A stretch of DNA of 64,000 bases from Vreelandella sulfidaeris (GTDB lineage: Bacteria > Pseudomonadota > Gammaproteobacteria > Pseudomonadales > Halomonadaceae). Below, one piece after another: positions 28,801 to 39,032 of this stretch (position 1 is the first letter of the stretch; each line of letters begins with the position of its first letter). Made by a program: the position numbers and the translations under genes. The stretch covers positions 3,596,001-3,660,000 of the forward strand of contig AP019514.1 in the NCBI GenBank assembly GCA_007182875.1, written 5' to 3'. The notes under the pieces are model-generated. The model was not told where the DNA came from. It did no database searches and saw nothing but the letters and a program-made list of their open reading frames with translations.

Positions 28801-29743
28801 GCCAATGAGCCAACCATCGCCCTGCCCTACAATAATCGAAATCAACGAAGTCGCTCCCCGGGACGGCCTGCAGATTGAAGCGCGGTTTGTACCAACGGAA
28901 GAAAAGATCCGCTGGATCGATGCGCTCTCCTCCACCGGCCTGCGCCGCATCGAAGCAACCTCGTTCACCTCACCCAAAGCGATCCCCAACCTGCGTGATG
29001 CCGCCGACGTAGTCACCGGCATTCAGCGCCGGAAAGGCGTCGATATCACCGTACTGGTGCCCAACGTGAAAGGCACCGAGCGGGCGCTCGCCTGCCAGGT
29101 GGACGAGATCAATCTGGTGATGTCAGCCAGCAATAGCCACGGCCTGGCCAATCTGCGCATGACGCCGGAGCAGTCCCTTGAGCAGTTCGCGGTGATTTTG
29201 GATGTTAGTAAAGATAGCGGCGTGTTTATCAACGCCTCTCTCTCGACTGCCTTTGGCTGCCCTTTTGAAGGTGACGTCCCTGAAGCGCGGGTGCTGGAAC
29301 TGGTTGAAAAGCTGATTGGCCTTGGCATTCAGGGCGTCACACTCTGCGATACCACCGGCATGGCCAACCCTGCACAGGTGAAGAGCCTGTGCGAAGCAGT
29401 GCTTGAGCGCTGGCCGGACACGCCGTTCACGCTGCACTTTCACAACACGCGCGGGATGGGCTTAGCCAACGCGCTAGCCGCTTGGCAGGCGGGTATCATA
29501 CGCTTTGATGCCTCATTAGGCGGGCTGGGCGGCTGTCCTTTCGCCCCAGGGCAACGGGCAATGTGTACCGAGGACCTAGTGCATATGTTTGAGGCCATGG
29601 GTGTCGATACCGGCGTCGACCTGGATGCACTGCTGGAAGTCGCCGCCACCCTCCCCGACCTGATCGGCCACGATGTGCCGGGGCAGGTGGTCAAAGCCGG
29701 GAAGTCGACCCGGCGTTATGCGATGCCAGTACGCGAATCTTAA
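28793..29743 (+). CDS. Hydroxymethylglutaryl-CoA lyase-family enzyme, with a compensated indel pair
   Basis: TIM-barrel lyase cutting a 3-hydroxy-3-methyl acyl-CoA into an acyl-CoA and a keto acid. About 316 residues. IIEINEVAPRDGLQIE, SLSTAFGCPFEG, LCDTTGMANP, and FHNTRGMGLANALAAW carry the metal and substrate residues. The signature GLGGCPFAPG is followed by QRAMC instead of the usual ASGNV. Adding one base after the GGG at 29549-29551 and dropping one near 29564 gives GATGNV-TED, so this is very likely a pair of sequencing errors, not a real variant. The start at 28793 overlaps the CoA-transferase; an in-frame ATG at 28805 is possible. HMG-CoA is the usual substrate, citramalyl-CoA an alternative. 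Confidence 0.87.
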   Translation: MHKPMSQPSPCPTIIEINEVAPRDGLQIEARFVPTEEKIRWIDALSSTGLRRIEATSFTSPKAIPNLRDAADVVTGIQRRKGVDITVLVPNVKGTERALACQVDEINLVMSASNSHGLANLRMTPEQSLEQFAVILDVSKDSGVFINASLSTAFGCPFEGDVPEARVLELVEKLIGLGIQGVTLCDTTGMANPAQVKSLCEAVLERWPDTPFTLHFHNTRGMGLANALAAWQAGIIRFDASLGGLGGCPFAPGQRAMCTEDLVHMFEAMGVDTGVDLDALLEVAATLPDLIGHDVPGQVVKAGKSTRRYAMPVRES

Positions 29744-31213
29744 GCTGGCCCAATCACATGCTTCACTTCAAGATAAGCGCTTAGCCCCCAGGGCCCCAAT
29801 TCACGCCCAATGCCACTGCGCTTGAAGCCGCCCCAGGCGGTTTCAGGCAGTACCAGTTGCTCGCTGTTGTACCAGATGCTACCGGCTTTAAGCTGACGGC
29901 CAATGCGCTTGGCACGCTCTGGGTCTCCGCCAATGACTGTTGCTGCCAGGCCAAAGCTACTGTCGTTGGCGAGCTGAATGGCTTCGGCTTCGCTTGTCAC
30001 GCTGCGGCCGCAGAGCACCGGGCCAAAAATCTCCTCTTTCCACAGGCGGCTCTCCACCGGCACATCGCGGTAAAGCGTGGGTGCCAGGAAATAGCCTTTT
30101 TCGGGTAGCGTGCGATGTTTTGCATCGCGCACCACTGTCAGCCCTTCCTGCTCGGCAAGATCCAGATAGCGTTGCACGGCGTCGCGCTGTTTGGCGCTGG
30201 TCAGCGGGCCTAAGTCGGTGCCTTCGGCAAGCGGGTCGCCTAGCGTTAACGCATCCATACGCTCGGCAAGTTCGGCATAGAGCGCTTCCGCTACATCTTC
30301 GTGTACCAATAGGCGCGAGGTGGCAGAGCAGATTTGCCCGGCATTAAAGTAAATGCCCGCCATTACCCAGTCAGCGGCTTGGGCAGGGTCGGCATCTTCC
30401 ATCACCAGAATGGGGGATTTGCCACCTAGCTCCAGCGATACGCTCGCGGTGCGGGCGCTGGCCGCCTGCATGACCGCTTCGCCCACGCGATTACTGCCGG
30501 TAAAGGAGATTTTATCTACGCCAGGGTGATTGGTGAGCGGTGCACCGATCCCCCTCACCGTCGCCGTTGAGCAAGTTGAGTACACCTGCGGGCAGGCCAA
30601 TTTCGAGAGCGATGTCTGCCAGCACTAACTCAGGGAGCGGTGTCACTTCGGAGGGTTTAAGCACAGCGGTACAGCCAGCGGCCAAAGCGGGGCTAGCTTC
30701 CAGGCGCTGGTGACGAGGGGGGAAATTCCACGGCGCAATCAGCCCCACTACGCCCACGGGGTCGTGATAAGTGAGAGCTTCAACACCCTCCATTTCAACA
30801 CTGACTAACTCACCCTGGCGAGCATCCAGCGCTTTAGCCTGTTTGGCGTAGTAGTGGTAGCAGGCAATGGCATCCTCTAGATCGATCTCCGCCTCCGCTA
30901 ACGGCTTGCCATTGTTGGTCGCCGACAGCGTGGTAATCGAATCACGGCGGGCTTCCAGTGCATCGGCGAAGCCTTCCAAATACTTTGCACGTGCGGCGCC
31001 ACCCAACGCCTGCCACTCAGGCTGCGCCTGCTGGGCGGCTTGTACCGCTGCATCGACGTCGGCCGCATCCCCGGCGGTTACTTGGGCAATACGCTCTTCA
31101 CGGTAAGGGTTCATCACATCGAGCAGGCGCGTGCCGTTTGAGGGCACCCATTGGTTGTTGATGAACTGTTTATCAAGCAGAGAAGCGTGTTCTATTTTAG
31201 ATGTCGTAGACAC
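29740..31213 (-). CDS. NAD-dependent aldehyde dehydrogenase, frameshifted; probable guanidinobutyraldehyde step
   Basis: About 491 residues, ALDH superfamily of the betaine/amino-aldehyde type. DPVGVVGLIAPWNFP, PSEVTPLPELVLADI, ISFTGSNRVGEAVM, the catalytic glutamate in SLELGGKSP and the catalytic cysteine in FNAGQICSATSRL are present. A shift near 30545 joins the halves. After PWNFP the reading gives PRHQRLEASPALAAG where the family has LVTSAWKLAPALAAG; the expected text is in the next frame, so two indels cancel here (about 30690-30725). As last gene of the guanidino-acid operon it would oxidise 4-guanidinobutyraldehyde to 4-guanidinobutyrate. That role is inferred from neighbours. Confidence 0.88.
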
Positions 31214-31225
31214 GATTAAGGCTCC

Positions 31226-31958
31226 TTAAAGCTCGTGTTGGCGAAGCCAATCATCAATAAGTTGGCGTAAATGCTGGCCGCTAAAACTGGGAAAATGGCC
31301 CCCATGGACGGTACGAACCGGCAACTGGCGTAGCCGGCGCATACTGGCGGCATAATCAGCGATGTCGCTGTGCCACAGATCTTCAATGAGTGGGCCATCG
31401 TAAATCAGGTCACCGGAGATAAGTGTTTGGGTTTTCGTCTCCCACAGCGCAATACCACCTGGGGAGTGGCCAGGCGTATGAATAACTTCCCACTGGCGGT
31501 TCCCTAAATCCAGTATCTCGCCATCCTTTAGCGGAGATACCATTTGCGGCGCCTGAATACGGTAACGATCATGTGAATAGGGTGCTGGGGTAGCGCCTCA
31601 AACATATCATCGCTGAGAAACTGGTCTGCCAATGTGCGCGTGTTGTCAGGCGAGGTCAGAATGTCCGCCTCGGCAGCATGCACGTGACAGCAGCCAAACT
31701 CATGAGCCGCACCGATATGATCAAAGTGGGTATGACTGGCGACCGCCAAAAGATTACGTTCGCTCAGTAGTGCCACCTGCTCACGCAGCGGCACCGCCCC
31801 AAGCCAAAATCCACTACCATGCCGCGCTTGCTGCCCTGAACATGCCAGATATTGCAGCGGTAAAACGGTTTGATCCACGGCTCATCCACTAGGGTGATAC
31901 CGTCCGCCTTAGGGGTGGTGCGGTACCATTGTTTTTCGTTAATACGTCGAAGGCTCAT
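31226..31958 (-). CDS. Metallo-beta-lactamase-fold hydrolase, frameshifted
   Basis: About 245 residues. The zinc motif SHTHFDHIG, then a later histidine in HTPGHSPGGIALW, the aspartate in SGDLIYDG and a final HGGHFPSF are the metal ligands of the fold. Shifts near 31805 (after VVDFGLG) and near 31560. Its ATG overlaps the permease stop by four bases. It belongs to the guanidino-acid operon, but no function there is known to me; glyoxalase-II-like thioester or lactam hydrolysis would be guesses. Confidence 0.82.
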
Positions 31959-33266
31959 GCAGCCACCCGCTTCCCGGCCACTGCCTTACTGACCACGAAA
32001 TAGAGAGCACCAGTGATTACGAATACCGGCAGCGACGCACCAAAATCCAACGGCGCGACCCAATTCCAGTAGTAAGCCAGCAACGCGCCTATCCCGTAGC
32101 TGCCCAGCGCCAGCCAGTTGAAGGCGGGAAGGCTATGTTCAGCCTGGATCAGCTGTGCCGAGGTATAGCGCTGGCGACCCAGCAGGTAGTAATCCACGAT
32201 CATCAGGGAAAAGGCCGGGATAAAGACGCTGCCGATAATCAACAGGAAGGTCTGGAACTGGTCAAGAATGCCGGGAATCAGCGCGCCTACCACTGACACC
32301 ACGCCGATGATCAACGCCGGTTTCCAGAACGGTACTTTGGGACGTACGCTCATGAATGAAAGCGTCGCGCTGTAGACGCACATCACGTTGGTGGTCAGTA
32401 CCGAGAAGAAAATCACCAGGGGCGGCGGGCAGGCCAAACCCGAAGCCGCTGAGCAGGGTCGTCGGGTCGTAGGTGGGCTCCATACCCACGCTGATTGACA
32501 GCGCTGACACCGTGGCGCCAAGGCCCATCGCTACCAGCGTTGCCACCACGTAGCCGCCCCAAGTGCCCACAACGGCTGCTTTTAGCGAGCGGCAATGACG
32601 ATTGTAGTCCGCCGCCAATGGTATCCAGGAAAACGCCGTTGCGACCACGATATCGAACACCACGCCGCCGCCCAACACGCCTTCGGGCTCCAACTGGGTG
32701 ATGCTCGGCAGATCGTAATGGCGATTGAGCGCGAACAGCACCACCGCCGAAAGCCCCAGCATCAGCAAGGCCGCTATCTTCTCGACTTTCTCGATCCCCA
32801 GGTGACCGCGGAGGGCAATCAGCACCACCAGGGATTCACAGATGACCGTGAAGAGCGCCACATTGGAGTAACCGGTCAGGCTTTCCACGGCGTAGTCCAG
32901 ACTCATGCCGGCGAGCAGCGCCTGGATCCAGCTCCAGGCAATCAGCGCCAACAGATTCACCCAGGCGGGGAAATTAGCCCCTTTTCTGCCGAGAGTGCCT
33001 CGCGCCAGTACCATGGTGGTCATGCCGGTTTGCTGTCCCATCACCCCGATCAATACCAGCGGAATGATACCGATCGCCGATCCAATCAAGATCAGCAGCA
33101 TCGCATGCTGAAAGGTCAGGTCCGGAACTAAAAACATGCCGGTTAAGGTGGTGGTAACCACTACATTGGCGCCAAGCCAGAGTGCAAAGGTTCCCGGTAG
33201 ACCAAGGCTATGTTCAACATCGTCGGCAGATAGTGTGTCCTGGCCGAGCACATGGTTATTCTTCAT
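31955..33266 (-). CDS. NCS1-family permease (cytosine permease-like), frameshifted
   Basis: About 437 residues with 12 predicted helices. The start SADDVEHSLGLPGTFALWLGANVVVTTTLTGMFL, then GRKGANFPAWVNLLALIAWSWIQALLAG and ATAFSWIPLAADYNRH, are typical of NCS1 (CodB-like) sodium or proton symporters. One shift near 32420 joins GFGLPA to LVIFFSVLTTNVMCVYSATLS. NCS1 members carry nucleobases, allantoin, hydantoins and related nitrogen compounds. Inside this operon a guanidino compound is a plausible cargo (inference). It overlaps the decarboxylase gene by 11 bases. Confidence 0.85.
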
Positions 33267-34897
33267 TGTTATCTCCTGGTGACATCAGGTTTTTCTGCCA
33301 GGCAGCGGCATCAATTTCGATCAGTAGCGGACCGTTGGGCTCGCGGTTGTCGAGCGCGTTGGCAAGTTCGGCGGGGCTCTCCACCAGCATGCCGGGGCAG
33401 CCAAACCCTTCGGCCAGGGTGAGGAAGTTGGGCGCCTGAATATCTACCCCTAAGCGCGCTACGCCGTTGGCGTCCATGTAGCGGCGAATCTCTTCGTAAC
33501 CGGCGTTGTGCCACAAAACGATCACCACTGGCAGCCGGGCTTCCACGGCGGTGGCGATTTCCGACAGCGTGAACATCACACCACCATCTCCTACCAGCGC
33601 CACCACCGGCAGGTCAGGCCGCGCCAACTGTGCTCCCAATGCCGCGGGCAACCCGTAACCCAAAGTGCCGTAACCGGTAGAGGCATTGAAGTAGCGGCGT
33701 GGTACAGGCTGGCTGACCAGGTGGTTACCGGCATACACCGGCGCGGTGGAGTCGCCTACCAGAATCGCCTCCGGCAGATAGTCGGCCAGGATTTTATAAA
33801 GCGGCACGAAATCGCTAAACGCCGGATCGTTTGCTAGATCCAGTGCGCTCAGAGCGGCGGCGGTTCGCTCGGCGCCTTGACGCTTCAGCGGCGCCGAAAA
33901 TGCACCAGCAAAGCTCCAAGCTGCGCCCGGCATCGCCCACCAGGCCCAACGTGGTGCGCTGATTGCGTACCAACTGTTCAGGATCAAGATCAATCCGAAT
34001 CAGCGTACCGTTGAGGTGAAAACCGTCGTCAAAAACGACGTCGTAGTCGGTTTCACCCAGTTCGGTCCCTATCGCTAGAATGACATCCGCCTTGGCGGCA
34101 AGCTCTCTTACTGCAGGCAGCGCAGCATTGGCGCCTAAGTCCATCGGGTGATCACGACCAAGCAGCCCCTTGGCGTTGATGGTTGTCACCGTGGGTGCAT
34201 CCAGTTGCTCAACTAATGCTCTTGCGGCTTCCGGCGCTGAAACGCAGCCGCCGCCCAATAGCACCAGGGGCTGCTTCGCTGCTCTTAGTAAGCGTGCAGC
34301 CTCAGCCAAGCCTTCTGGATCGGGCGCCGCGCGGTAAAGCGTGGGCGCTTGCCAACTAACCGGAGCGCTGACCGGCGCATTGAACAGATCGATGGGGATT
34401 TCAATATGCACCGGGCCTGGGCGCGCGCCGTTGAAAACGGCAAAGGCGCGGGCCAGTACCTCGGGTAGCGTGCTGGCATCCAGCAGCGTGTGGCTAAAAC
34501 GCGCCACGCCGCTGATTATCTGCTGTTGGCTGGGCAGTTCGTGCAGCCGCCCTTGCCCCAAGCCCAAGGTATCGCGGCGGTTCACGCTAGAAATCACCAG
34601 CATCGGTATGGAGTCCGCCAGGGCTTGGCCCATGGCGGTGGCAATGTTGGTCATGCCTGGGCCGGTGATAATCAGGCACACCCCCGGTTGGCCGCTGGCG
34701 CGGGCATAGCCGTCGGCCATAAACCCTGCGCCCTGTTCATGGCGCGGGGTTATATGCTGCACATCGCTGCCTTCCAGCCCGCGATAAAGTTCGACCGTAT
34801 GCACGCCGGGAATGCCGAACAGCGACCGCACGCCGTAAGTATCGCGCAGCAGGTGAATCAACAGTTCGGCGCAGGTCATTGTCTTTGACTCTTTCAT
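33256..34897 (-). CDS. aruI: Thiamine-diphosphate decarboxylase, 5-guanidino-2-oxopentanoate decarboxylase-like, frameshifted
   Basis: About 547 residues, acetolactate-synthase-like fold. FGIPGVHTVELYRGLEG with the catalytic glutamate in RHEQGAGFMADGYARASG, then GRLHELPSQQQIISGVARFSHTL, resembles AruI. AruI decarboxylates 2-oxo-5-guanidinopentanoate, made from arginine by transamination, to 4-guanidinobutyraldehyde. The thiamine-diphosphate motif is GDGGVMFTLSEIATAVEARLPVVIVLWHN. A shift near 33920 joins the middle and C-terminal domains. A generic acetolactate synthase is less likely because the operon also encodes a guanidinobutyrase and an aldehyde dehydrogenase, the next two enzymes of the route. 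No arginine:pyruvate transaminase gene is in the window. Confidence 0.83.
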
Positions 34898-34907
34898 GCA
34901 TGGCCCC

Positions 34908-36290
34908 TTAGAAGAAAAACGTGTGGGCCATAAAGGCGATGATCGGCAGCGTAATCGCAGTACGCAGCAGAAAGATGGCGACCAGTTCCCAGAGCTTGAT
35001 GGGAATTTTCGACTTGAGCAGCAGCGCGCCGATTTCAGACATATAAATCAGCTGAGTAAGCGACAGACAGGCAATCACAAAGCGGGTGAGCTCGCTTTCG
35101 ATATTGGTCGCCAGCACCGCGGGCAGAAACATATCGGCAAAGCCCACCAGGGTGGCGGGCGCTGCCGCCTCTGCCTCTGGAATACGCAGCAGTTCCAGCA
35201 CCGGTACCATCGGGTAAGAGAGCCATGTAAATAGCGGGGTGAACTCCGCCAGAATGAGCGCCACCGTGCCAATGGCAAATACCAGAGGCAACAGCGCAAG
35301 GAAAATATCCATGACGTTGATCAGTGCCAGGCGCGCCAGTTCACGAGGGCCGGGAGCTCCAGCGGCGCGATTGGTGGCTTGAATCAAGCTGTAACGAAAC
35401 AGGCCCACTTTTTCAGTGCGTTCTTCACTCAACTGGCAGCCCACGGGCTCGTAGTAGTCATTGGATTTGCGCGACAGCGGCGGTAGGCGCGGCACAATCA
35501 CCGCCGCGATCAAGCCGGAAACCACCACCGTAAAGTAGAACTGCACAAACAGGTGGTTGATATCGACGAAGCTGGTGACGAGCAGCGCAAACGCAATCGA
35601 TACCACGGAGAAATTGGTAGCAATGACCGACGCTTCGCGCTGGTTATAGAAGCCTTGCTCATACTGCTGTGTGGTGATCAGCACCCCTACGGTACCCGAG
35701 CCCATCCATGAGGCGGTGGCATCGATAGCGCTGCGTCCCGGCAAATTAAAGATCACCCGAAACGGCTTGCGCACCATACTGCCGATGAACTCCATAAAGC
35801 CAAACTCGACCAGGAACGGCAGTAGCAGCGCGGCAAAGAAGAAGAAGGTTAGCAGCACCGGCGCAAGGTCATTGAGCATGACGCCCCCTGTAAAAGAGGC
35901 GGTGATGAACTCAGGTCCAAATTGGAAATAAGTCATCACAGCAAACAGTGCGCCTAATACACGCATCACAAACCATAACGGCCCAACGTGAAACATTTCA
36001 TGCAGCACGCCTTTAACGGCCCAGCCCGGATGCGCCAGCTTGGCATAAAGCGTTGCCACTACTGAAAGGCAGAGCACCACCATTGCAATGGCGGGTAGCG
36101 CCGAGCCCAGCAGGGTTTGCAGGCCATCGGCCATTAAGCCCATGCCGATGTTAATGGTGTCACCCACTTGAAAAGGGACGAGAAACAACAGCACCCCGAT
36201 CAGGGAGGGGGATCAGAAATTTCAGTAAGTGCGCGCGGGAATCGGTGCCGACGAGGTCGGCTGTTCCGATTTAACGTTGCTATACGGCAT
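34908..36290 (-). CDS. YjiH-family membrane protein (nucleoside-recognition GATE domain), frameshifted
   Basis: About 460 residues, ten or more helices. The start MPYSNVKSEQPTSSAPIP at 36290 needs two indels around a CCCCCTCCC run near 36205-36225 to reach LKFLIPSLIGVLLFLVPFQVGD. Two Gate-type blocks follow: GRSAIDATASWMGSGTVGVLITTQQYEQGFYNQREASVIATNFS and PAATLVGFADMFLPAVLATNIESELTRF. YjiH proteins often sit with arginine, agmatine or guanidino-acid genes, and a transport role is likely but unproven. It lies between guanidinobutyrase and aruI. Confidence 0.85.
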
Positions 36291-36395: not shown

Positions 36396-37345
36396 TCATT
36401 CGCTGTGTTTAACGCCCGGCAATACACAGAGCATTTCATACAGCAGCGTGGCGCCCATTAATGCCGTGTTCCCGCTGGGGTCATAGGGTGGTGATACTTC
36501 CACTAGGTCGCAGCCGACAATATTTAGGCCCGCCGCGCCGCGAACAATTTCTAGCCCCTGGGCCGAAGTCAGCCCGCCCATTTCCACCGTGCCGGTACCG
36601 GGGGCAACAGAAGGATCCAAACCGTCAATGTCGAAGCTGATATACACCGGGATATCGCCCATTTTTCGCGCACTTCAGCCATCAGCGGCGTCAGCGAGCG
36701 ATGCCAGCACTCCCTCAGCCTGCACCACACGAAAGCCCTGCTCGCGACACCAGTCGAAATCCTCAGGGGCGTAACCGGTCCCGCGCAGGCCGATTTGCAC
36801 AACCTTGTTGTGGGCCAGCAGACCCTCCTCCTGGGCACGACGAAACGGCGTCCCATGGGCAATCGGCTCGCCAAACATATGCTCGTTCACATCGGCGTGG
36901 GCATCGATATGAATCAACCCCACCGGGCCGTGCTTTTGGCCATCGCGCGCAGAATTGGCAGCGTCAGCGTGTGCTCGCCGCCTAGCGTCAGCGGAATGCA
37001 GTCATGCTTTAACACGTCGTCGTAAAAGGCCGTGATGATGTCGACGCTTTTCGGCAGGTGGAACGTATTAATCGGTACGTCGCCGATATCAGCTACTTGC
37101 AGGCTTTCAAACGGTGCGGCGCCGGTGGCCATGTTGTAGGGGCGAAGCATGCGCGACTCATCGCGAATCTGCCGCGGCCCAAGGCGCGTGCCGGGGCGGT
37201 TCGAGGTACCGATATCCATGGGAATACCAATAAAGGCGGCATCCAGCCCTTGGGCGTTCTCTTGAGTAGGCAGGCGCATCATGGTGGCGGGGCCTGCAAA
37301 GCGCGGCATGGTGTTGCCGCCCAGCGGCTGATTAAACTCTGACAT
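36396..37345 (-). CDS. gbuA: Ureohydrolase (guanidinobutyrase/agmatinase family), frameshifted
   Basis: Splits 4-guanidinobutyrate (or agmatine) into an amine and urea at a two-manganese centre. About 316 residues. Manganese ligands are seen in [20 protein letters not shown] and [16 protein letters not shown]. The early [20 protein letters not shown] and late [22 protein letters not shown] are typical of the agmatinase/guanidinobutyrase branch. Shifts near 36940, 36690 and 36665. Guanidinobutyrase is preferred over agmatinase because aruI and an aldehyde dehydrogenase follow in the same operon. It is the first gene, about 100 bases after a sigma-54 promoter. The symbol is given on context. 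Confidence 0.82.
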
Positions 37346-37444
37346 CGTTATCTCCTTGGATTTATTGTGGCGTTGAGGCACGGCTGATCCATGCTGCCTA
37401 GTTGGGTTCTTTGTCTTCTTGGGGTTTTTTGTCTTGTAAGACGT

Positions 37445-37460
37445 TGCACATAACGTGCCA
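37445..37460 (-). promoter_or_regulatory. Sigma-54 (-24/-12) promoter for the guanidino-acid operon
   Basis: Read on the minus strand: TGGCACG-TTAT-GTGCA. The invariant GG and GC dinucleotides stand at the required spacing; only the first base of the TTGCA box differs. It points to the guanidinobutyrase start about 100 bases away and faces a sigma-54 activator gene. The predicted transcript start is near 37433. Confidence 0.8.
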
Positions 37461-37501
37461 ACCCTGCGCTAGCGATAAACAGGTAGGATTACTGGCAAAA
37501 C

Positions 37502-37567
37502 GATGCAAAATGCATCAATAAAGCCCACCAACGATTCACAAATGAATCAATAATTCATTTATGAATC
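37502..37567. promoter_or_regulatory. Three dyad sites, probable upstream activator sequences
   Basis: Three similar inverted repeats: GATGCA-AAA-TGCATC at 37502-37516, GATTCA-CAAA-TGAATC at 37533-37548, and AATTCATTTATGAATC at 37552-37567. The last two are 19 bases apart centre to centre, close to two helical turns. They lie 40-120 bases upstream of the sigma-54 promoter and also cover the promoter region of the activator gene, which fits activation of the operon and control of the activator itself. Confidence 0.75.
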
Positions 37568-37616: not shown

Positions 37617-39032
37617 ATGAGTGAAATAGACAAGCACGTACTGCAAACCATCGTAGAAACCGCCAACGACCACTTCTTTATCGTCAGTGGCGATGGGCAG
37701 ATCGTGGATGTCAGCCCAGGTGCCGAAGCGGTTTATGGAGTATCGCGTGAAGAGCTGCTTTCCAGCAGCGTTCAACAGCTACAGGCGGCTGGGGTATTGA
37801 AGCCCTCCATTACCATGGAAGTCATGCGTACCCGTCGGCCCGCGCAATTGATGCAAATCACCGGCACAGGCCGGCGCGTCATTGCAGAAGCCTATCCGGT
37901 GTTCGTGAATGGCAAGCTGGAACGCATTATCAGTCGCTCGCGAGATTTAACCGACCTCCAGTTGCTGCAAGACGAATACGCGCTGCTCCAAAAACGCTTT
38001 AGCGAACACTTAAAGCGCAGCCATGCCGCGCCGGATGCCGAAGAGCAGGCGTTGGATGACGCCCTGGATAACCTGCAGGTCAGAAGCCATGTGATGCGGG
38101 AAATTGCCCTACTGCTCAAGCGGGTCGCCCCTTCAGACGCCAATGTGCTGATGCTGGGGGAGTCCGGCGTGGGCAAGACCGCTTTGCCAAGCAGCTACAT
38201 CGCTGGAGCCAGCGCCATAACGGCCCTTTCATCGACGTCAACTGCGCGGCGATTCCTGAAAATCTGTTCGAGTCCGAAATGTTTGGCTACCAGCCCGGCG
38301 CTTTCAGCGGCGCCGCACGGCAAGGTAAAGCCGGGTTATTGGAGCAGGCCGAAGGGGGCACGCTGTTCCTCGATGAAATCGGCGAACTGCCGCTGCTAAT
38401 GCAAACCAAACTACTCAAAGTCATCCAGGACGGCAGCCTGACTCGCTTGGGCGATACACGCTCGCGCCGGGTCGATTTTCGCTTGGTGGTGGCGACCAAT
38501 CAGGACTTGGGAAAACAGGTAGAAGCGGGACTTTTCCGCTTGGACCTTTACTACCGCCTCAACGTGATCCCGGTCACCCTGCCGCCACTGCGCGACCGCC
38601 GCGAGGATATCCCCGATCTGGTCGAAGCGTGCTTAAAAGGCTGAACCAGCGCTATGGGCGGCAGAAAATTCTCGGCAATCAGGTATGGTCGACTCTGATG
38701 GGCAGCGACTGGCCGGGGAATGTTCGCGAGCTGGAAAACTGGCTGGAGCGGGCCTGGCTCTCAAGTTCCACCGATCAAATTGAAGCCCCACCGCACAGGC
38801 CCATAGCGAACAGCGCGCCGACAGCTTGCCGAGTGGCTCCCCCGCGCCGCTGGTAGCGCCGCTTGCTCCGGAAGAGAATCTCAAACAGTACCTCGAACGC
38901 TTAGAGTGTGAAGCGCTGCAAGCGCTATGCCACACACTCCCCAGCACCTACGCCATCGCCAAACGGCTGGGCATTAGCCAATCCAGCGTGGTGCGCAGGC
39001 TGCAGCGCTACGGCATCAAAGTCACCAAGTGA
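37617..39032 (+). CDS. Sigma-54-dependent PAS/AAA+ transcriptional activator, frameshifted
   Basis: About 471 residues. An N-terminal PAS domain ([31 protein letters not shown]) probably senses the inducer. A linker helix precedes the AAA+ domain with Walker [24 protein letters not shown], Walker [16 protein letters not shown] and the arginine-finger region [10 protein letters not shown], then [14 protein letters not shown]. The sigma-54 contact loop reads GAFSGA instead of the common GAFTGA. A TyrR-like DNA-binding helix pair ([23 protein letters not shown]) ends the protein. Shifts near 38185, 38635 and 38790. It diverges from the guanidino-acid operon and should activate it through the sites at 37502-37567. 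Confidence 0.9.

Follow-up and report, generated by a model that had tools for sequence, protein, structure and literature searches.

The divergent gap between a gbuA-like gene and a regulatory gene of Vreelandella sulfidaeris is best explained as the enhancer and promoter of a dedicated sigma-54 switch. In this model, the switch serves a single operon and is run by the activator encoded on the other side of the gap. Binding of the activator to the gap is predicted from the sequence, and the model is given a probability of about 0.88. The window analysed here is a stretch of 64,000 nucleotides from contig AP019514.1. Read from sequence and open reading frames, the gbuA-like gene starts in it at 37345 on the minus strand and the activator gene at 37617 on the plus strand, with a -24/-12 promoter and three dyads in between (Table 1).

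Table 1. Features of the putative switch and of the adjoining operon in the window.
Feature	Position	Strand	Remarks
Activator gene	37617..39032	+	PAS, AAA+ sigma-54 interaction domain, TyrR-type HTH_50; end coordinate by eye
Distal dyad AATTCA-N4-TGAATC, AATTCATTTATGAATC	37552..37567		centre about -125.5
Middle dyad GATTCA-N4-TGAATC, GATTCACAAATGAATC	37533..37548		centre about -106.5
Promoter-proximal dyad GATGCA-N3-TGCATC, GATGCAAAATGCATC	37502..37516		centre about -75; relatives: GATNCA-N4-TGNATC
-24/-12 (sigma-54) promoter TTGGCACGTTATGTGCA	37445..37461	-	one mismatch to YTGGCACGN4TTGCW
gbuA-like gene, arginase/agmatinase/guanidinobutyrase family, operon gene 1	36396..37345	-	frameshifted; end coordinate by eye
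Gate-domain (nucleoside-recognition) permease	34908..36194	-	domain match
aruI, 5-guanidino-2-oxopentanoate decarboxylase	33256..34897	-	split over two frames
NCS1-family permease	31955..33266	-	split over two frames
Metallo-beta-lactamase-fold (MBL) hydrolase	31226..31878	-	split over two frames
Aldehyde dehydrogenase, candidate 4-guanidinobutyraldehyde dehydrogenase	29740..31213	-	split over two frames

The window assembly contains many single-base indels. Between 29740 and 39032, none of the genes for gbuA, aruI, the NCS1 permease, the MBL hydrolase, the aldehyde dehydrogenase or the activator lies in a single frame; alignment with the related locus L014 reveals three single-base gaps in the activator gene. 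The listed completeness of the genome (G000) is 74.6%. Unless they are common to relatives, these frameshifts are probably assembly errors. An intact version of the operon can be found in a related genome (G017, locus L153), where gbuA, the Gate permease, aruI, the NCS1 permease, the MBL hydrolase and the aldehyde dehydrogenase follow one another and the activator gene is divergent; the gene names in G017 were transferred from matches of the window's and other relatives' genes. The first aruI piece of the window reaches 524.8 bits in the NCBIfam model for 5-guanidino-2-oxopentanoate decarboxylase, whose cut-off is 500. With this match and the gene order of G017, the initial annotation of the locus as a guanidino-acid operon holds. 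The presence of aruI together with gbuA and an aldehyde dehydrogenase is also what characterizes a guanidinobutyrate (arginine transaminase) operon.

The -24/-12 promoter had been proposed at this place on the minus strand, and the pattern search confirms it. Up to three mismatches to the consensus are found at 80 places in the window, close to the 77.9 expected from shuffled sequence, and the promoter in the gap is the sole one with a single mismatch. Its GG and GC are 10 bp apart, as in the consensus. When the second G of the GG is counted as -24, transcription is predicted to start at about 37434, one base away from the position 37433 given earlier.

The three related dyads were likewise found where they had been described, both in the sequence itself and by pattern searches. 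The promoter-proximal dyad is the only exact match among five in the window, and the middle and distal dyads are the only places in the window with fewer than two mismatches. From the distal dyad it is 19 bp to the middle dyad and 49 bp to the start codon of the activator gene. Elsewhere in the genome, the exact sequence GATTCA-N4-TGAATC occurs once more, at L002, outside the open reading frames listed around it. At up to two mismatches there are 109 matches in the genome, near the 80 of a reversed-pattern control, so most stray single sites are background. A site with one mismatch, L009, also lies elsewhere in the genome. Exact single sites are few across 13 genomes. A profile search of the window genome at E <=0.5, under stricter filters by which some weak matches are missed, returned both readings of one array and no second array.

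Conservation in related loci shows that the array goes beyond chance. A search with the gbuA product gave 567 candidate places, of which the best 80 were taken. A divergent, adjacent orthologue of the PAS-AAA+ activator is present at 37 of them. The other 43 loci served as controls without an adjacent activator, including L058, which has a partial activator match at the edge of the locus. At least 150 bp of upstream sequence was available for 40 of the controls; L048 has 116 bp, and L022 and L024 have 0 bp, their contigs starting with gbuA. L024 is letter-for-letter the same as L151 from genome G023, which does have the activator.

A matrix trained on the same gaps finds three sites of the form GATNCA-N4-TGNATC in 36 of the 37 relatives and two in the remaining one, L093, where the proximal site is below the recognition threshold. 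The dyads whose absence upstream of orthologous operons was to refute the annotation are thus present. Some sites in the loci L015-L017, L025, L054 and L071 are weak. Overlapping matches from neighbouring sites were removed from the matrix count by a distance rule. The untrained pattern GATKCA-N4-TGMATC gives a similar picture: at up to one mismatch it occurs 76 times in 8,518 bases, in 35 of the 37 gaps, and at up to two mismatches at least once in 36 gaps and at least three times in 29. In the control regions (43 loci, 16,116 bases) there are no sites at up to one mismatch and three at up to two. Outside the gap, the same 37 loci contain four sites in 359,163 bases at up to one mismatch. With the window included, the 38 gaps hold 78 sites at this stringency, compared with a mean of 0.34 in 50 shuffles.

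The search suggested earlier, for GATKCA-N3/4-TGMATC in related genomes, thus succeeded in its N4 part. The N3 part yielded one exact site in 38 regions, the window's own. The proposed recognition sequence stands as a dyad, with its fourth position relaxed: T, G, C or A can occur there, which gives GATNCA in place of GATKCA. An alignment of 35 arrays shows conservation at the three sites and none in the sequence that links the middle site to the proximal one. The relatives extend beyond Halomonas-type bacteria to Marinobacterium (L054), Terasakiispira (L067), an Oceanospirillaceae MAG (L068) and a Salinisphaera MAG (L071).

The promoter is conserved as well. A -24/-12 match, defined by fixed GG and GC and at most three mismatches in 13 positions, occurs in all 38 orthologous gaps (window included), compared with 5 of the 43 control regions. 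It begins 57-155 bp before the gbuA start in each of the 37 activator-bearing relatives. Of the 38 promoters, 35 have G, C or A in place of the first T of the -12 element TTGC.

If the array is read by the divergent activator, the two should be found in the same genomes. An array profile, R1, was run with stricter filters over 78 related genomes, and an activator profile over the same 78, with thresholds of E <=1e-6 for the array and E <=1e-120 for the activator. R1 was built without the window, the near-duplicate locus L017 (of L016) and the two-site locus L093. The array was found in 32 genomes and the activator in 31, all of which are among the 32; the counts are not independent, since many of the genomes are close kin and some contributed to R1. 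The 32nd genome with an array is the window's own, whose frameshifted activator misses the threshold. Neither array nor activator was found in the other 46 genomes, where the best array E-value was 0.024. Repeated palindromes upstream of a promoter, conserved together with a regulator, are the mark of an upstream activating sequence, and the array shows this pattern.

At E <=1e-6, read on one or both strands, each of the 32 genomes has one array, except G023. In this genome, Vreelandella andesensis (L151, L152), a separate contig carries a second gbuA copy, preceded by a three-site array and a -24/-12 promoter of its own. Contig C28 of G023 is letter-for-letter the Vreelandella andesensis contig L024. 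A further 29 arrays were examined, of which 28 have three N4 sites and the 29th is that of genome G071; five of the 29 have a 90-base piece in common with the 37 gaps.

Another explanation is that gbuA has a different regulator, which uses the array, and that the activator is an accidental neighbour. Binding by the activator is a prediction, and the second array of G023, on a contig without the activator, suggests that an array can travel with gbuA. However, G023 still has the activator, array and activator are present or absent jointly over the 78 genomes, and sites at up to one mismatch are absent from all 43 control gbuA loci. A different regulator is therefore very unlikely.

The distribution of aruI is broader. 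Of the 32 genomes with an array, 30 have aruI above cut-off, and so do five genomes that lack the activator (G021, G044, G045, G050 and G075). G050 and G021 were examined, and have neither activator nor array. Because aruI belongs to a different cluster in these two, the activator-free genomes with aruI do not provide a fair test for loss of the array. As named by eye, this other cluster (L154, L155) includes an aminotransferase, ABC transporter genes and a divergent AraC-like regulator. The aminotransferase of the G050 cluster, also named by eye, has no match in the window genome at E 1e-60.

The geometry of the array is nearly constant. The spacing between distal and middle sites is 18-20 bp across relatives, and that between middle and proximal sites is 32-34 bp; the window has 19 and 32 bp. 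The last two dyads had been described as two helical turns apart, which is not the case: 19 bp corresponds to 1.8 turns. The outer sites are fixed at 51-53 bp, and the middle site shifts by 1-2 bp between them. The block as a whole moves relative to the promoter, mostly by about one helical turn. In 36 relatives (L093 and the window are left out of this tally), the proximal site is centred at -64.5 or -65.5 (6 loci), -73.5 to -76.5 (23), -85.5 (3), or -110.5 or -111.5 (4). Among the first three groups, successive ones differ by about one helical turn; the last does not fit this pattern. This last group consists of L027, L029, L032 and L037, in which the array lies about 36 bp further from the promoter, a non-integral number of turns. 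Sites for IHF between array and promoter are not general; a simple consensus for this protein is matched in 6 of 38 gaps (L038, L044, L045, L046, L049 and L068), and also in L093 within a longer stretch.

These distances bear on a further alternative: the array might chiefly serve as an operator for the activator gene itself, with gbuA activated only secondarily or not at all. In 27 of the 37 relatives the distal site starts no more than 35 bp away from the activator start codon, and in 13 this distance is 13 bp or less, with starts taken by alignment to the ATG in the window. Over all 37, though, the distance from the array to this start varies from 1 to 688 bp, whereas the array keeps to preferred distances from the -24/-12 promoter (proximal centres near -65, -75, -85 and -111). 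The extra array of V. andesensis also precedes a gbuA gene with its own -24/-12 promoter. The chance that autoregulation is the main role is accordingly put very low. A simple scan found no sigma-70 promoter for the activator gene.

For the sigma-54 switch itself, the regular spacing raises the idea that the asymmetric three-site array is a fixed scaffold which pre-arranges three dimers for ring assembly. With its distal site at the start of the activator gene, a single 70-bp module would then couple activation of the operon with autorepression, and 4-guanidinobutyrate would be a new ligand for a PAS domain. This extension is tentative and, taken as a whole, doubtful.

The N3 spacer of the window's proximal dyad is probably an assembly deletion, to judge from the sequences of its relatives. 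The promoter-proximal spacer is N4 in 36 of the 37 relatives, and a run of five T in L014 corresponds to four T in the window. Among the arrays examined, N3 was found in the window and in G071 (L157) alone, whose assemblies both have broken genes and completeness values of 74.6 and 86%. Because N3 is confined to these two assemblies with broken genes and lowered completeness, a genuine second spacing is unlikely. A homopolymer deletion in both is the simplest reading.

The arginine repressor/activator ArgR helps sigma-54 transcription at the ast operon of E. coli. It might be supposed that the dyads are ARG boxes at which ArgR does the same, since they contain ATTCA and TGAAT half-sites next to an arginine pathway, and the two distal dyads of the window form TGAAT-N5-ATTCA across their linker. 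This can be rejected as extremely unlikely: ArgR (PF01316) was not detected in the window genome and is matched in 2 of 38 genomes searched, which include 24 others of the same genus (one match within the genus below cut-off and one outside it above), and the isolated proximal site still carries the GATNCA-N4-TGNATC unit.

The predicted activator has the domains expected of a sigma-54 regulator. In all three intact relatives scanned, PAS, Sigma54_activat, AAA lid and HTH_50 domains were found, with PAS, Sigma54_activat and HTH_50 above cut-off. Sigma54_activat (PF00158) scores 216 to 225 bits in the three, and HTH_50, which is taken here to be the TyrR type, 33.2 to 44.2 bits against a cut-off of 27. 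No ACT domain was found in these orthologs at E <=0.01. The domain matches in the window and in the intact relatives bear out the PAS/AAA+ sigma-54 activator that had been reported as diverging from the gap; the HTH_50 domain of the window protein is taken from the relatives. The loop that contacts sigma-54 reads GAFSGA, a conservative change from GAFTGA, in 37 of 38 activators (window 38279-38644 and 37 relatives), and GSFTGA in one. This loop sequence, the weak or missing sites of a few loci and the 36-bp shift of four arrays are points against the model. PrdR is the best NCBIfam match of both activator pieces in the window, far below cut-off, as expected of fragments. Among solved structures, the matches were to other enhancer-binding proteins, mainly over the AAA+ domain.

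Several known systems resemble the switch. In Pseudomonas, the arginine transaminase pathway comprises aruHI, kauB and gbuA and is regulated by AruRS and GbuR, a two-component system and a LysR-type regulator. The chemistry downstream of 2-ketoarginine is the same, whereas here a single sigma-54 activator would be in charge.

An example for a similar arrangement is GcsR of Pseudomonas aeruginosa, a TyrR-like enhancer-binding protein. It has three palindromic N4 sites upstream of a sigma-54 promoter, each of which is needed for its own bound band (PMC4894688). Both systems thus have three palindromic N4-centred sites upstream of a -24/-12 promoter, and a local sigma-54 activator of an adjoining amino-acid catabolic operon with a TyrR-type DNA-binding end. 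They differ in the site (TGTAACG-N4-CGTTCCG for GcsR, GATNCA-N4-TGNATC here), in the domains (ACT and PAS for GcsR, PAS alone found here) and in the compound (glycine for GcsR, presumably a guanidino compound here) (PMC4894688). With the TyrR family the activator shares the HTH_50 domain and palindromic sites. TyrR proteins in the narrow sense have ACT and PAS domains, whereas PAS and no ACT was found in the three orthologs, and the TyrR site is given as TGTAAA-N6-TTTACA (PMC4894688), unlike the conserved GATNCA-N4-TGNATC.

Another comparison is with the one-component enhancer-binding proteins of clostridia. One paper describes PrdR, OrdR and AguQ as sigma-54 activators of amino-acid or agmatine operons, and reports PAS domains in 357 of 387 proteins of the one-component set (PMC6615313). 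In both features they are like the predicted activator. Fifteen of the regulator groups covered there, including that of PrdR, have TGT/ACA repeats 10-12 bp apart (PMC6615313), unlike the present array. No published description of the activator, its recognition sequence or the fixed array was found among the open-access matches listed. Within that literature, the parts and the logic of the switch are known, and the recognition sequence, the fixed array and its link to the activator were not found described.

The following mechanism is proposed. The activator would sense, probably through its PAS domain, a guanidino compound that the pathway either produces or takes up; 4-guanidinobutyrate is the most plausible one. 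Three dimers of the PAS-AAA+-HTH_50 protein would bind the three GATNCA-N4-TGNATC sites near -125, -106 and -75. They would then assemble into a hexameric AAA+ ring and contact the sigma-54 RNA polymerase at -24/-12 across a spacer of about 40 bp, and the use of ATP would open the gbuA promoter. Three dimers, a ring and opening of the sigma-54 complex are expected from the domains of the activator and the precedent of GcsR. The products of the operon would convert 2-ketoarginine, by way of 4-guanidinobutyraldehyde and then 4-guanidinobutyrate, into GABA and urea. In most relatives the distal site lies within or beside the leader of the activator gene, so that the activator, once bound, probably holds down its own expression as well.

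As the inducer, 4-guanidinobutyrate is a first guess, made because the operon variants share the gbuA step. Agmatine is a possible alternative, since intact gbuA orthologs pass the cut-off of the agmatinase equivalog model TIGR01230. One variant, in genome G032 (L156, 5057-10563), has the same switch before an operon that lacks aruI and the Gate permease and consists of gbuA, the NCS1 permease, a nitrilase-like protein (below NCBIfam cut-offs), the MBL hydrolase and the aldehyde dehydrogenase. The nitrilase-like gene perhaps provides another route to 4-guanidinobutyrate. Because array, activator and gbuA occur there without aruI and the Gate permease in the operon, both the inducer and the pathway label become less certain.

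The PAS-AAA+-HTH_50 activators, an unnamed family found in this analysis mainly in Halomonas and its relatives, thereby gain a DNA site and a single target, both predicted, along with a plausible inducer. The fixed spacing of 19 and 32 bp over distant genera is a natural data set on how dimers are arranged before a ring assembles. A possible use of the switch is as a compact inducible promoter for Halomonas.

Three of the five control loci with a -24/-12 match (L034, L039 and L051) have what looks like a good promoter upstream of gbuA, with neither this activator in the fetched DNA nor GATNCA-N4-TGNATC sites. Because the promoter is present and the sites are not, another sigma-54 activator may act at these loci.
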